Assembly: GCF_004135365.1 (NCBI RefSeq)
Contig: NZ_CP035492.1
Coordinates: 2,898,001-2,962,000, forward strand
Source of the DNA: Paenibacillus protaetiae
GTDB taxonomy: Bacteria > Bacillota > Bacilli > Paenibacillales > Paenibacillaceae
Length of the DNA: 64,000 nucleotides
Reading direction: 5' to 3'
This document shows, in pieces, positions 5,222 through 10,839 of this stretch; within the stretch, counting starts at the first letter, position 1, and the number at the start of each line of letters is the position of its first letter. The notes beneath the pieces were generated by a model that saw nothing but the letters and a program-made list of their open reading frames with translations, ran no database searches and was not told the DNA's origin. The position numbers and the translations under genes were made by a program.

Positions 5222-5935
5222 CTACTCCACATCCTTTCGGTTAAAATGGAGCAGGCCCAGCGCCAAAATGATCATGCCGAAGACGATTCCGGCTCCAACA
5301 AACAACACCGCGTGGTCTCCCCTATATGCGGCCGCCGGCCAATTCAGCGGGAGCCACTCCGACAGCGACATCGTAAACAAGGAGCCAACCGAGGCGACAA
5401 CGCCGAACGTAATCGGCAAGGCCTGGTTTTTGAAGCTGAGGCACAGCCACAGCATAAGCGCGAGCATTGGCCACGACGCCAGGAACGGGCAGAAGGAAAG
5501 CCGCAGCAGGCCGCCAACCGGCATTTCTCCGCCGGAGCCGAGCGCAAAGCCAAGCACTGCCGTTCCGGCAGCCAGCAGCGCACAAGACGACGTCAGCAAT
5601 AAGACGCTTACTGCAAATTTGGAGCTGAATACCGCCAGGCGCGATATCGGAAGCGCAAGCAGCTGCTTCCATGAGCTGGTGCCGTGCTCCACGTTGGCGA
5701 GCAAAGAGCTGACCAGCGTGCAGCCGAGAAACAGCGATACCGGAACAAAATACGATGTATATTCGAGCAGCACGCCCCACAGGTTATGGCCGTAATCATT
5801 AACGAAGTAGTCGTAGCGCAGCCCGAAATTTAATGCCATTAACGCAACGAGCCCCAGCGGCGCGCCGGCGGCGAGCAGCCAGAGGCCTTTGCCGCGTATT
5901 TTCAGGAGGTCGGACGAAAGCGCCTTGCCGATCAT
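5222..5935 (-). CDS. ABC-2 type permease, lantibiotic/bacitracin-immunity-like (first subunit)
   Basis: This 237-residue membrane protein has about six helices and the same VEHGTSSWKQLLALPISR signature as its downstream partner, showing the two arose by duplication. Its ATG overlaps the TGA of the ATPase gene (ATGA), a classic coupling arrangement. The ending FNRKDVE matches FNRKEL of the partner. It presumably pairs with the other permease and the ATPase as a LanFEG-type exporter. The substrate is unknown. Confidence 0.8.
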   Translation of the reverse strand: MIGKALSSDLLKIRGKGLWLLAAGAPLGLVALMALNFGLRYDYFVNDYGHNLWGVLLEYTSYFVPVSLFLGCTLVSSLLANVEHGTSSWKQLLALPISRLAVFSSKFAVSVLLLTSSCALLAAGTAVLGFALGSGGEMPVGGLLRLSFCPFLASWPMLALMLWLCLSFKNQALPITFGVVASVGSLFTMSLSEWLPLNWPAAAYRGDHAVLFVGAGIVFGMIILALGLLHFNRKDVE

Positions 5936-6852
5936 AAGCGCGCTCCCCCTTCCACAATTTGCAGAAACAGCTCCTCCAGCGATTTCCGTTTTTCCTCGAT
6001 GCGGTATATATCATGGCTGCCTGCGACGAGAGTACGGACCAGCTCCGCCATTTCGGCGTCGCTCCAAGCGCCTGGCAGCGTAATGCCGGAAGCGGTCATT
6101 ACCGCCTCTTCTACTCCGTGCCTAAACAGCTTCAGCATCGCCTCTTCCGGCTCCGAAACGCGCAGCTGAATAGAGCTTTGCGCCTGCTCCTGCAAGCGGG
6201 CGATCGTATCCTGGAATACCAGTTCCCCATGGCGGATAATGCCGACTGTGCCGGCCATTTGCTCCACTTCGCTGAGCAGATGGCTGGAGATCAGCACCGT
6301 TATGCCGTGCTGGGCGGGCATGCTTTTGATCAGCTCGCGGATTTCCAATATGCCCGAAGGATCAAGGCCGTTAGTCGGCTCGTCCAAAATAAGCAGCTCC
6401 GGCTGCCCAAGCAGCGCGCTGGCAATGCCAAGCCGCTGCTTCATCCCAAGCGAGTAGCCTTTGACGGAACGTCTCGCTTCCTTGGTCAGCCCTACAATCT
6501 CAAGCACCTCGGCAATTCTTGCCCTAGGCGCGTCTATAATGCGGCGGATCGCCTCCAAATTGTCCACTGCCGTCAAGTGGCCGTAATAGGACGGATATTC
6601 CACCAGCGAGCCGACTTTGCGCAGAAGGGGCAAGCGGTCCGTCTTCAGCGGGCGTCCGAACAGCTCCACCGTTCCCTTGGACGGCTTAATGAGTCCTAGC
6701 AACATCCGGATTGTCGTCGTTTTGCCGGCGCCGTTAGGTCCAAGAAAACCGTAAATATCTCCGCGCGAAATGCGTAAATTCAAATTGGAAACGGCGAATC
6801 GCCCTTTGTAGGATTTGCTGAGTCCTTTCGTTTCAATAACCCAATTACTCAT
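5932..6852 (-). CDS. ABC transporter ATP-binding protein (LanF/BcrA-like)
   Basis: The 306-residue ATPase energises the two adjacent permeases. It has Walker A GPNGAGKTT, Q-loop region, signature YSLGMKQRLGIA, Walker B LLILDEPTNGLDP and the switch histidine in SSHLLSEVE. The sequence past residue 220 is the C-terminal extension common in BcrA/LanF proteins. The ATG at 6852 follows GAGGTGAT and fits better than the ATG seven codons upstream. It sits 70 bp after the kinase gene in the same direction, so regulator, kinase and transporter form one operon. Confidence 0.88.
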   Translation of the reverse strand: MSNWVIETKGLSKSYKGRFAVSNLNLRISRGDIYGFLGPNGAGKTTTIRMLLGLIKPSKGTVELFGRPLKTDRLPLLRKVGSLVEYPSYYGHLTAVDNLEAIRRIIDAPRARIAEVLEIVGLTKEARRSVKGYSLGMKQRLGIASALLGQPELLILDEPTNGLDPSGILEIRELIKSMPAQHGITVLISSHLLSEVEQMAGTVGIIRHGELVFQDTIARLQEQAQSSIQLRVSEPEEAMLKLFRHGVEEAVMTASGITLPGAWSDAEMAELVRTLVAGSHDIYRIEEKRKSLEELFLQIVEGGARL

Positions 6853-6922
6853 CTCTATCACCTCGTAACCCACAATACAGGACCAAGGTTAAAGCCAAGG
6901 AGAGGCGAAGTTTAAAATTCGT

Positions 6923-8341
6923 TTAAAATTGCAAATCCCGCATGCGGCTCCCGGGCTGTTTCGGGCGGATGATGACGTTCGTGCCATCCGGCGACCGGTC
7001 CATCTCCCATTCCAGCTCCATCTCGCGGATCAAATGGTCTACAATAGCCAGCCCGATGCCGGCGCCTTTGCCGCTTCCGGACATGCCGCTGCCCCGGTCG
7101 CTGATCACCAGCGCATCCGTATCCCCTTGCCGCTGCAAGGATAACCCGATATAACGCCCGCCGGAAGCATGGCGGACTACGTTCTGAAACAAATTATCGA
7201 GCACGCGCCGGAAGCCGTTCCGGTCAATCCGCCACAGCAGGCGGCGTTCCGTCACCCCGGCGTCAATATCCGCTGCGATTCCTTCTTTCTCCCATAGCGG
7301 ATACCAGGAAGCCGCCGTTTCCCGGACAAGCCGGAGCACATCAAGCTCCTCCAGCTTCAGCGGATACCGGCCGCTCGTCATAAGCGTATAGGAGAGCAGA
7401 TTGTCGATCAGGCTGCTCAAATCGTCGATTTTAGCGGCCAGCTGAATCATCGCCGCATGCCCGGATTCGCTCATCCGCTCGCGCTGCAAGGCGTACAAAT
7501 GGCCGTTCATCACGGTCAGCGGCGTGCGGAGATCATGCGATAAGCTGGAAATAAGCTGCTGGCGCAGCTCCTGCTCCTCGCGTTCGCGGTGCACGCTAGC
7601 TTTCAGCTGCTCCACCATTTGATTAAAGGCGTCCTCCAGCTGGCCGATTTCATCCGGCTTTTTGCGCCCGATCGGCAGCGGCAGGCCGTCTTCGCCGCGC
7701 AGCGCCATCGCCGCCTGCAGGCGGAGCAGCCGCTGGCGGATTTGGCGGAAAAACAGCAGCGAAATAAAAATAAAACCGCCGAACAGCACAAACATGACCA
7801 AAATATAAATCGGTGTGCCCGGCTGCATATTAAAGGCGTTGCGGAACAGCGATCTCGGCAGCTGGATCACCATAAATCCCGGCCCCGTGCTGCCTTCCCC
7901 CAGAAACGCCGCAACCGTAAAAGGCTGGCCGCCGACATAGTCCTTCATAAACCGCATCGCATCATCCGCTGTCCAATGCGCTGGCAGCTCCGGCGTCTGC
8001 TGCACGGGATGCAGAGTGCCGCCGCCGTCCACCCAGAAGACCGACGCTTCCGGATAGGTTCCCGCCAGCTCGCGGAGCCGCTTGTCCACTTCGTCCGGCC
8101 GCCCGGCATCAAGCCGGGCGGCTTCGTTATGCCATACCTCTTCCACATGGCTGGCCGTCCCGTATTTCAGCCCGTCCCCGCTTTGCTGAAACGAGCCTTG
8201 CGTAAACAAATAAGCAATCGCGGTCAGCGGGAAGATGATCGGCAAAAAAATGACCGCAATCAGAACAATGAGCACATAGCGCGACAGCAAGGAATGCCGG
8301 AATTTGATTCCGCTTGTATGAGCACGTTTCGCGTTCTTCAT
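6923..8341 (-). CDS. Membrane sensor histidine kinase (HAMP-HisKA-HATPase)
   Basis: This 472-residue kinase has an N-terminal membrane helix (YVLIVLIAVIFLPIIFPLTAIAYL), an extracytoplasmic domain of about 130 residues, a second helix (IYILVMFVLFGGFIFISLLFF), a HAMP linker, the H-box SSLSHDLRTPLTV and ATPase boxes DNLFQNVVRHA, DRGSGM and GAGIGLAIV. Its ATG overlaps the regulator's TGA by four bases, so the two are co-translated. The large extracellular domain differs from intramembrane-sensing BceS kinases. It probably senses an envelope-active compound and controls the downstream ABC genes; this is inferred from operon structure. Confidence 0.88.
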   Translation of the reverse strand: MKNAKRAHTSGIKFRHSLLSRYVLIVLIAVIFLPIIFPLTAIAYLFTQGSFQQSGDGLKYGTASHVEEVWHNEAARLDAGRPDEVDKRLRELAGTYPEASVFWVDGGGTLHPVQQTPELPAHWTADDAMRFMKDYVGGQPFTVAAFLGEGSTGPGFMVIQLPRSLFRNAFNMQPGTPIYILVMFVLFGGFIFISLLFFRQIRQRLLRLQAAMALRGEDGLPLPIGRKKPDEIGQLEDAFNQMVEQLKASVHREREEQELRQQLISSLSHDLRTPLTVMNGHLYALQRERMSESGHAAMIQLAAKIDDLSSLIDNLLSYTLMTSGRYPLKLEELDVLRLVRETAASWYPLWEKEGIAADIDAGVTERRLLWRIDRNGFRRVLDNLFQNVVRHASGGRYIGLSLQRQGDTDALVISDRGSGMSGSGKGAGIGLAIVDHLIREMELEWEMDRSPDGTNVIIRPKQPGSRMRDLQF

Positions 8342-9012
8342 GCTCTTACCCGGTAACCGATGCCCCGGACGGTCTCAATGACTTCGGGCGCAGCAGGATT
8401 GCGCTCCAGCTTTTCCCGCAAATAACGGATATGGACCATCAATGTTTTATCGCCTTCGATATAAGGTTCGCCCCATACCGACTCATAAATTTGCTCTTTC
8501 GTCAAAATTTGCCCCAAATGGCGGAGCAAATAAGAGAATATTTGAAACTGCTTGCCCGTCAGCGTAATTTCTTCCCCTGTGTCGCGGTTTTCGATCCGGT
8601 TTTCCTGCTCGAATACTAGCAGATGTTTGATTGCAACCGGCTCTGCGCCGACCGCGCCGAACCGGCGCAGCAGCACCTCGACGCGCGCCGCCAGTTCTTC
8701 CGGATGAAACGGCTTCGTCAAATAATCGTCCGCGAACTGCAGCCCGTGCAGCTTATCGTCGATAGACGTGCGGGCCGACAGCATCAGGATCGGGACGGAC
8801 GGCTCCGCTTTTTTCAGCCGCTGGCCGACCGTAAATCCGTCCAGCCCCGGCAGCATGACGTCCAGAATAACCAGCTTGCAGCCGGCCGCTTCCTCCACCG
8901 CCCGTTCGCCGCTTGTCAGCCATTTGATCTCATAACCCCGCTCCTGCAAATAAGCGCGCACGAAATTGCCGATCTCTGCATCATCTTCTATGTATAACAG
9001 CGAAATGCCCAT
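8338..9012 (-). CDS. OmpR-family response regulator
   Basis: The protein has an N-terminal receiver domain with the acidic pair in LLYIEDDAE, the phosphoacceptor aspartate in LVILDVMLPGLDG, the conserved threonine/serine region MLSARTS and lysine in YLTKPF, then a C-terminal winged helix (LTGKQFQIFSYLLRH ... VHIRYLREKLE). The start at 9012 (MGISLLYIEDD) matches the family N-terminus; an ATG 14 codons upstream is possible but leaves an odd extension. As first gene of the operon it probably controls its own transcription with the kinase and the transporter. Confidence 0.88.
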   Translation of the reverse strand: MGISLLYIEDDAEIGNFVRAYLQERGYEIKWLTSGERAVEEAAGCKLVILDVMLPGLDGFTVGQRLKKAEPSVPILMLSARTSIDDKLHGLQFADDYLTKPFHPEELAARVEVLLRRFGAVGAEPVAIKHLLVFEQENRIENRDTGEEITLTGKQFQIFSYLLRHLGQILTKEQIYESVWGEPYIEGDKTLMVHIRYLREKLERNPAAPEVIETVRGIGYRVRA

Positions 9013-9110
9013 GCCAGCTACATCCTTTCCAGCCTTATGTTCCTCTATGTTCAAGTATGCCTCCTATTCTAGATAAAGTTTTCCGTTCCGTAAACGGCAG
9101 ATGGCTGCAT

Positions 9111-9140
9111 TTGCCACCATGGGGCCGAATATGCTACACT
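9111..9140 (+). promoter_or_regulatory. Promoter of the hflX leader
   Basis: TTGCCA (9111-9116), an 18-bp spacer and TACACT (9135-9140) give a plausible sigma-A promoter with a start near 9147, about 430 nt before hflX and just ahead of the upstream reading frame. Confidence 0.55.
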
Positions 9141-9171
9141 GTAGCTAATTTTCAGGAACGGAGGATTGCGT

Positions 9172-9210
9172 GTGATAGACTTTATCCGAGTTAGAACTTT
9201 GCGCGGCTAA
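9172..9210 (+). CDS. Leader peptide MIDFIRVRTLRG (upstream ORF of hflX)
   Basis: A GTG start seven bases after a perfect GGAGG (9160-9164) opens a 12-codon frame ending in TAA. The product is too short to fold and contains Arg-Val-Arg at positions 6-8. Arg/Lys-X-Arg/Lys is the established motif at which macrolide-bound ribosomes stall (as in ErmD-type leader peptides). The position just after a promoter and before a terminator-controlled gene argues for a regulatory role. It has not been tested, and chance occurrence of a short frame remains possible. Confidence 0.6.
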   Translation: MIDFIRVRTLRG

Positions 9211-9500
9211 TGAATGGAACCGGTCGAACGGCGCTTGATGGCGCGGTTTCATTTCCATGTTTACGGCAAAGCTCTGCCTGCGTGCAGAGGACTCAGGATC
9301 AGTCTGTCCATTTCGGGCAATCTCTACGGAAGCCTCCGAACGGATAAACTTGTCGCATCGCGCTACAGGTATACCGGCCTTTCCCTTTACCGTTTATATG
9401 CGGGAAGAAGGCCGCCTGCGGTGCCGATCGGCAGACAATCAGACTGCAGCACCGGATCAATCCGATTCCGGTTATTATTCCGGTCTTCTTGCACATGCTG

Positions 9501-9528
9501 ACACAGGCAGACACGCCTGTGTTTTTTT
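9501..9528 (+). terminator. Attenuator terminator upstream of hflX
   Basis: ACACAGGC-AGACAC-GCCTGTGT, a perfect 8-bp stem, followed directly by seven T's, 45 bp before the hflX start codon. No gene ends just upstream, so it acts within the hflX leader. Confidence 0.85.
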
Positions 9529-9573
9529 ACGTTTTTTATAATGAAAACGAACCTGACGGAGGATGATAAATAG

Positions 9574-10839
9574 ATGGAACAAACACGCGAGAGAGCGATT
9601 ATCGTTGGCGTACAGCTGCAACATCATGACAATTTTGCTTATTCGATGGAAGAGCTGCGCAGCCTGGCGGACGCCTGTTATATCGACGTTGCAGGGGAAC
9701 TGACACAAAAAGCCGAGCGCGTTAATCCGGCGCATTATATCGGGGCAGGCAAGCTGGATGAGCTGCGGGCGATCCGCGAAGAGCTTGGCGCGGAAACCGT
9801 TATTTTTAACGATGAGCTTTCCCCTTCCCAAATCCGCAACCTGGAGGCGGGACTGGACTGCAAAGTAATCGACCGGACCATTCTTATTCTGGATATATTT
9901 GCGGAACGGGCGCAAACCCGCGAAGCGCAGCTGCAGGTTGAAGTAGCGCGGCTGCAGTATATGCTGCCGCGCCTCGTCGGGCTGCGCGAATCGCTGGGCC
10001 GCCAAGGCGGCGGCGCAGGACTTCGAAACCGCGGCGCCGGCGAGACGAAGCTGGAGCTGGACCGCCGGCGCATCGAGGAGCGGATCAGCGCGCTGCAGGG
10101 CGAGCTGGAGAAGCTTGTTGCGCGGCGTCAAATCCAGCGGAAGCAGCGCCGGAAAAACGAAGTGCCCGTCATCTGTCTCGTCGGCTACACCAATACCGGC
10201 AAATCAAGCTTGATGAACGCGATGCTGGAGACGTATCACCCGGATACGACCAAGCAGGTTTTTGCCAAGGATATGCTGTTCGCTACGCTGGAAACGTCGG
10301 TCCGAAGCATCGAGCTGCCGGACAACAAATCGTTTCTGCTGACCGATACGGTCGGTTTTGTCAGCCAGCTGCCGCATCATCTGGTGAAGGCGTTCCGCTC
10401 GACGCTGGAGGAAGTGGCCGAAGCCGATCTGCTCGTGCATGTGGTCGATTACGCTCATGAAGATTACCAGCAGCTGATCGACGTCACCAATGAAACGTTA
10501 AAGGAGCTTGGGGCAAACGATATTCCCACGATTTATGCCTTTAACAAATGCGATTTGACCGATCAGCCATATCCGGTTGTGGCCGATAATGCTATTTATA
10601 TGTCGGTTAAGCAAAAAAGCGGGCTCGCTGAACTGACCGGCCTCATCCGGAAGTCGGTGTTCAGCGATTACGTGGAATGCGAGGTGCTGATCCCGTATGA
10701 GCAGGGAAGGCTCGTCTCGTATTTTAACGAGCATGCCCAGGTGCGCAGCACCAGCTACGAGGAGGAAGGAACCCGCCTCGTCATGGAATGCCGCGCGGCC
10801 GATCTCGAGAAATACCGCCAAGAGATGACGGTGCTTTAA
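9574..10839 (+). CDS. hflX: HflX-family GTPase (ribosome-splitting / antibiotic-protection type)
   Basis: The 421-residue protein has the N-terminal HflX domain (GAGKLDEL), the coiled-coil with the family signature GRQGGGAGLRNRGAGETKLE, and a GTPase domain with G1 GYTNTGKSS, G3 DTVGF, G4 NKCD. HflX binds the 50S subunit and splits stalled ribosomes; the related HflXr of Listeria gives resistance to macrolides and lincosamides. A GGAGG sits 11 bases before the ATG. The attenuator leader with a stalling-type peptide favours an antibiotic-inducible role, but sequence alone does not separate housekeeping HflX from HflXr. Confidence 0.9.
   Translation: MEQTRERAIIVGVQLQHHDNFAYSMEELRSLADACYIDVAGELTQKAERVNPAHYIGAGKLDELRAIREELGAETVIFNDELSPSQIRNLEAGLDCKVIDRTILILDIFAERAQTREAQLQVEVARLQYMLPRLVGLRESLGRQGGGAGLRNRGAGETKLELDRRRIEERISALQGELEKLVARRQIQRKQRRKNEVPVICLVGYTNTGKSSLMNAMLETYHPDTTKQVFAKDMLFATLETSVRSIELPDNKSFLLTDTVGFVSQLPHHLVKAFRSTLEEVAEADLLVHVVDYAHEDYQQLIDVTNETLKELGANDIPTIYAFNKCDLTDQPYPVVADNAIYMSVKQKSGLAELTGLIRKSVFSDYVECEVLIPYEQGRLVSYFNEHAQVRSTSYEEEGTRLVMECRAADLEKYRQEMTVL

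Follow-up and report, generated by a model that had tools for sequence, protein, structure and literature searches.

How is the hflX gene of Paenibacillus protaetiae switched on, and by which signal? The gene lies in a window of 64,000 nucleotides, the whole stretch of DNA analysed here, which belongs to a 4.23 Mb genome. For its leader, the original prediction had proposed attenuation of the kind known from Listeria hflXr, relieved when a macrolide-type drug stalls ribosomes on an Arg-x-Arg peptide. Sequence comparison and folding models support this reading through the conserved frame and its Arg codons, covarying helices, a mutually exclusive antiterminator and terminator, refolding under a ribosome footprint, the HflXr clade of the gene, occurrence of the same RNA before resistance genes, and homology to the proven attenuators of ermD/ermK and Listeria rli80. 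The leader is thus very probably a macrolide-inducible, ribosome-mediated transcription attenuator controlling hflXr; the stalling, the stall codon, the inducing drug and the effect on resistance we infer.

The hflX locus and its leader

By sequence, the window gene encodes a member of the HflXr clade. Among solved structures, its product matches best the HflX chain of PDB 8a57, which we take to be Listeria HflXr, at 470.8 bits; other HflX structures reach at most 284 bits. The HflXr and canonical clades split with high support in a tree of HflX proteins, and the window HflX groups with that of Listeria. The second hflX of the genome (L002) is canonical and matches HflX chains other than 8a57 better. 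The closest relatives of the window protein are from Paenibacillus, mostly at 71-80% identity. In Listeria, HflXr has been proposed to split drug-stalled ribosomes (PMC6310831).

The features of the locus, in window coordinates, are as follows.

9111-9140, +: promoter TTGCCA-18-TACACT with a TG extended -10; position kept in 66/113 hflX leaders
9160-9164, +: Shine-Dalgarno (SD) sequence GGAGG of the leader ORF; conserved in relatives
9172-9210, +: leader ORF MIDFIRVRTLRG, 12 codons and TAA, with GTG start at 9172 and R-V-R as codons 6-8; from sequence and relatives
9164-9169, +: P1 5' strand GAUUGC, overlapping the SD end; pairs with 9317-9322
9317-9322, +: P1 3' strand GCAAUC; pairs with 9164-9169, swap test in relatives
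9184-9191, +: P2 5' strand AUCCGAGU, codons 5-7; pairs with 9291-9299, A9295 bulged; covariation in the diverse set
9291-9299, +: P2 3' strand ACUCAGGAU; pairs with 9184-9191; covariation
9197-9202, +: P2b 5' strand CUUUGC, codons 9-11; pairs with 9266-9271
9266-9271, +: P2b 3' strand GCAAAG; pairs with 9197-9202; covariation
9272-9289, +: P3 hairpin CUCUGC-CUGCGU-GCAGAG, putative anti-antiterminator; 99.7% of cells paired in hflX leaders, with CG to UA double changes
9273-9283, +: predicted antiterminator 5' strand (P3 5' arm and loop), a mimic of the terminator 3' arm; from duplex and folding computations
9501-9511, +: predicted antiterminator 3' strand, the same bases as the terminator 5' arm; best-duplex target in 94/113 hflX leaders
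9500-9528, +: intrinsic terminator GACACAGGC...GCCUGUGUU and U run; stem 9500-9523, terminators of relatives
9574-10839, +: hflX (HflXr clade), 421 aa; TIGR03156 at 445.7 bits, chain 8a57_D at 470.8 bits, tree

The promoter and the GGAGG-GTG ORF of 12 codons were predicted correctly. Taken alone, the promoter is weak (9/12, where about one such site per region is expected by chance); in the 66 leaders that keep its position, the strongest candidate promoter stops 16-18 nt short of the module. The peptide has Arg at positions 6, 8 and 11. P2, P2b and P3 meet in a three-way junction that has ORF codons 5-11 among its strands, and P1 further encloses the SD. The hairpin at 9272-9289, described earlier as a local one, does exist, but as one arm of this junction. 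The antiterminator proposed with it is also found, though with 10 of 11 pairs, C9281 facing A9503 in a mismatch. The expected strong terminator is in place as well: its T run lies about 45 nt upstream of the hflX ATG, and the final base of its stem about 50 nt. Set against shuffles of itself, the whole leader of 387 nt has a better fold by 3.5 SD.

An extra stem-loop of about 45 nt is inserted in the P2b arm of the window (9211-9265); the aligned relatives lack it. On the opposite strand and divergent from the leader (5932-9054, -), co-oriented genes for a response regulator, a sensor kinase and an ABC ATPase look like an antimicrobial-peptide-type sensor/transporter unit.

Conservation and alternative folds of the leader

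Leader alignment among relatives, named in advance as a check on the prediction, found the 12-codon frame conserved. The same ORF precedes hflX in about 30 Paenibacillus loci, including nearly every Paenibacillus hflX in L003-L034; relative to the gene it sits at -284 to -475, with the peptide consensus M-[IV]-[DHN]-[FYS]-I-R-[VI]-R-[ST]-.... The second Arg, codon 8, is written as AGA, AGG, CGC, CGT, CGA and CGG and is replaced by Lys three times among 69 distinct ORFs which, being selected by the motif, inform on codon diversity only. R/K-x-R/K occurs in 117 of 120 hflX leaders, a count helped by an ORF choice biased toward the motif. The leader shows the short, conserved ORF with this motif and a good SD that an attenuator of this kind should have.

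The helices are conserved as pairs. In the hflX set, 97.2% of cells are paired and covariation is 0.103, against 0.081 when shuffled (0/500). In the diverse set, whose alignment was fitted to the structure and so favours it, 89.5% are paired, covariation is 0.407 against 0.183 when shuffled (0/500) and at most 0.145 in slid controls, and double changes are present in 20 of 21 pairs. When P1 strands are swapped between species, the native partner is superior in 90 of 105 relatives, by 3.3 kcal/mol on average; the 3' site lies about 110 nt downstream of the SD end in most of them. The terminators of relatives have ACACAGGC...GCCUGUGU in common, with compensatory changes of the 5' arm ACACAGGC; linked changes give ACGGGC in L003, L027 and L033, and ACAGACA in L016 and L018.

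In 94 of 113 hflX leaders, the terminator 5' arm is the best duplex partner in the whole leader for the strand made of the P3 5' arm and loop. We modelled the stalled ribosome as a footprint from 15 nt upstream to 36 nt inside the ORF, forced unpaired, on an RNA that ends once the terminator 5' arm is transcribed. In the window, expected antiterminator pairs rise from 0.04-0.09 to 6.4-7.5; with the same footprint in 94 relatives, their mean rises from 4.1 to 8.4 (64 up, 0 down). The leader thus has a terminator upstream of the gene with a mutually exclusive antiterminator and, in these computations, an anti-antiterminator that involves the ORF and is opened by a stalled ribosome.

Once the complete terminator is present, the energy model prefers it by 3.8 kcal/mol with the ribosome stalled and by 9.1 kcal/mol without, and equilibrium folding of the full leader alone does not predict antitermination. 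As the terminator wins at equilibrium, the mechanism should be kinetic and require antiterminator pairing ahead of synthesis of the terminator 3' arm. In the minimum-energy fold, the P3 3' strand is paired with codons 9-12 instead. We count this alternative fold against the attenuator, together with the one mismatch of the window antiterminator, the unconserved stretch of about 175 nt from P1 to the terminator, and the moderate outcome of the swapped-partner test of the antiterminator, in which the own partner is superior in 123 of 182 cases.

The switch can be pictured as follows. In the absence of drug, the ORF would be translated fast or not at all, and P1, P2, P2b and P3 would form. The antiterminator strand would be held in P3, surrounded by P2, so that the terminator at 9500-9528 forms and transcription ends upstream of hflX. 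When a macrolide-type drug occupies the exit tunnel, the ribosome would stall at R6-V7-R8, its footprint covering the SD and most of the ORF and opening P1, P2 and P2b. As P2 surrounds the antiterminator strand, its opening would presumably lift a topological block, too. The freed 9273-9283 could then pair with 9501-9511 upon transcription of the latter, blocking the terminator; hflX would be made, and HflX would split drug-stalled ribosomes.

Relatives of the leader across Bacilli

A covariance model trained on 26 hflX leaders only (R1) has matches in 220 of 297 Paenibacillaceae genomes and, across the order, in 117 of 200; in P. protaetiae, covariance-model searches find the hflX leader as the sole copy of the RNA. 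We looked at the genes downstream of 198 R1 copies, a sample enriched in second copies and collected without use of those genes: hflX (120), macrolide phosphotransferase, mph (27), erm (22), macrolide esterase (13), Msr ABC-F (4), rlmA(II) (3), SDR (3) and unclear (6). The tested esterases pass the NCBIfam macrolide-esterase cut-off (NF052610). A second model (R2), built from Paenibacillales sequences only, has matches in 53 genera of Bacilli (119 of 399 genomes). Behind 71 of its copies, 70 from other Bacilli families and one from the Cytobacillus locus L031, lie mph (19), erm (15), ABC-F/mef operons (12), hflX (7), esterase (7), rlmA(II) (3), SDR (2) and other MFS genes (6).

R2, trained on neither of them, recognises two studied attenuators in unfiltered searches: the Bacillus licheniformis ermD/ermK leader (58.3 bits, E 9e-13) and the Listeria monocytogenes hflXr (rli80) leader (34.7 bits, E 2e-7). 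On these scores, the window leader is of one RNA family with both. Mutations in the Listeria leader have probed its start codon, antiterminator and anti-antiterminator (PMC6310831). The two hflXr leaders are alike in an hflXr-clade gene, a short R-x-R ORF, an anti-antiterminator in the ORF region, an antiterminator and a terminator (PMC6310831), and the HflX proteins cluster. They differ in the peptide (rli80 MRYIRLRFPKNLCN, 14 aa with RLR; window MIDFIRVRTLRG, 12 aa with RVR), in the P3 and terminator sequences and in the window's extra P2b stem-loop, and the drug response of the window leader is a predicted one. The ermD/ermK leader shares transcription attenuation with an R-x-R peptide (PMC4335068) and, by R2, the RNA family; it differs in controlling an rRNA methyltransferase, with the peptide MTHSMRLRFPTLNQ. 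The prediction of a possible new member of this control class therefore holds, whereas its RNA layout, homologous to those of rli80 and ermD, is not new.

Other likenesses are less close. The uORFC-6-1 group of Bacillales, mainly before hflX, has a conserved Arg-x-Arg uORF, an ORF-including structure and covariation (PMC8632094). It differs in its R-L-R and 51 representatives, and the part of the source consulted does not connect it with erm, mph or esterase genes (PMC8632094); compared by that description only, it may be the same RNA and is probably a subset of the present family. The tlrB (yxjB) leader of B. subtilis, MIIQFIRYR, is similar in its FIR-x-R core, macrolide-dependent stalling and attenuation (PMC6851288), a likeness seen at the level of the peptide; it is set apart by its 9 codons ending in RYR, its tylosin specificity and a further control at translation (PMC6851288). 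The mef(E)/mel and msr(A) leaders, MTASMRLR/K, combine an R-x-R/K peptide with attenuation (PMC4335068). R2 matches the Lysinibacillus mef(F)-msr(G) leader (59.3 bits); the Staphylococcus epidermidis msr(A) leader (MTASMRLK) was rejected as a member at 5.2 bits, which is not significant. Chancey et al. found the mef(E) and ermK leaders to be without homology except in the peptide (PMC4335068).

An Rfam 15 search with the window and 14 diverse members matched no family, and a plasmid blastn search with the leader gave no match. R2 did not match the region upstream of Lysinibacillus fusiformis hflX. No R-x-R leader was recognisable at the HflXr genes of five loci in other Bacilli (L303, L306, L309, L328, L331), so that the switch is not universal for HflXr. 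A literature search returned nothing relevant that ties mph or esterase genes to such leaders.

What appears to be new here is that these leaders make up one Bacilli-wide RNA family, outside Rfam. A fuller proposal has, in our estimate, an even chance of being right: a single family, a three-way junction round an R-x-R ORF plus a terminator mimic, for which we found no single-family description in the literature, would have been re-used as a plug-in sensor of drugs in front of nine or more gene families (hflXr, erm, mph, macrolide esterase, Msr/Sal-type ABC-F, mef, rlmA(II), LmrB-type MFS and SDR oxidoreductase), its R-x-R-less copies (esterase, SDR) would sense other drugs, and the SDR enzyme would be an unrecognised resistance factor. 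One conserved RNA connects the Listeria hflXr and Bacillus ermD attenuators with mph, esterase, mef/msr and rlmA genes, so that macrolide-responsive genes can be sought through their RNA switch rather than their protein. A guess at one locus becomes a testable family; most of the interest lies in that family, found behind many resistance genes.

The inducing signal and alternative explanations

The RVR peptide resembles the tylosin-specific tlrB leader as closely as it does erythromycin-type leaders. Classical macrolides are not the sole candidates for the signal: it might be another ribosome-targeting drug, for instance a lincosamide, a ketolide or a peptide antibiotic of soil bacteria. Lincomycin induces Listeria hflXr more than erythromycin does (PMC6310831), and stalling at R/K-x-R/K depends on the drug: tlrB, whose FIR-x-R resembles the MIDFIRVR of the window, stalls with tylosin and not with erythromycin (PMC6851288). 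The other carriers of the RNA are mostly macrolide-specific genes (mph, esterase, mef/msr), and we consider such a signal rather unlikely, yet a serious candidate. Those same neighbours tell against a sensor of low charged tRNA-Arg, which the three Arg codons in 12, repeated in most Paenibacillus hflX leaders, might bring to mind. The RNA precedes macrolide phosphotransferase, erm, macrolide esterase and Msr genes instead of Arg genes; many members have the R-x-R only (MANFIRLR, MINFSRLR), some have Lys, and only the R-x-R spacing is conserved. Judged by the gene content of 269 module copies, no series of Arg codons leads into an Arg-related gene, and arginine attenuation was rejected as exceedingly improbable.

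A riboswitch binding the drug directly, its ORF incidental, would account for the compact three-way junction and the strong covariation. It would leave unexplained why the peptide is kept through differing Arg codons and the SD is conserved; besides, the homologous Listeria leader requires the ORF start codon for its response, which ErmC abolishes (PMC6310831). On the conserved peptide, the SD and the Listeria start-codon requirement, we rejected the riboswitch, giving it hardly any probability, even if the esterase and SDR copies with constant RNA and changed peptide still need an explanation. Control of hflX translation by SD sequestration, in place of transcription, has a precedent in tlrB, where both modes operate (PMC6851288). 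In the window, a canonical terminator is the hairpin closest to hflX, its U run about 45 nt ahead of the gene, and it does not include the hflX SD; this alternative is very improbable.

Under the attenuator reading, the esterase and SDR copies suggest that specificity was retuned by altering the peptide on a constant RNA. Varying peptides on such a scaffold offer a natural series for nascent-peptide discrimination among macrolides. The esterase copies in question keep the RNA and have peptides without R-x-R (MLDNSNSGVLGFTN; MWQINFS...), at L167-L170 in Paenibacillales and at L252, L254, L261, L272, L273 and L290 in other Bacilli, which suggests a different stalling motif.

An SDR-family oxidoreductase (NF006114 subfamily) follows the RNA in five genomes, three of Paenibacillales (L104, L120, L187) and two of other Bacilli (L241, L246), and is a candidate for an unrecognised macrolide-responsive enzyme. 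At L120, L241 and L246 its leader has six codons, MIDSSR or MIDFSR. Further MFS genes behind the RNA are of the LmrB type (lincomycin efflux; L260, L268, L283, L291) or TetA-like (L243). At L086, L092, L146 and L147, tandem modules lie about 350 nt apart upstream of a single erm, with peptides (MVDNNRV..., MVDQ...) that have no R-x-R.
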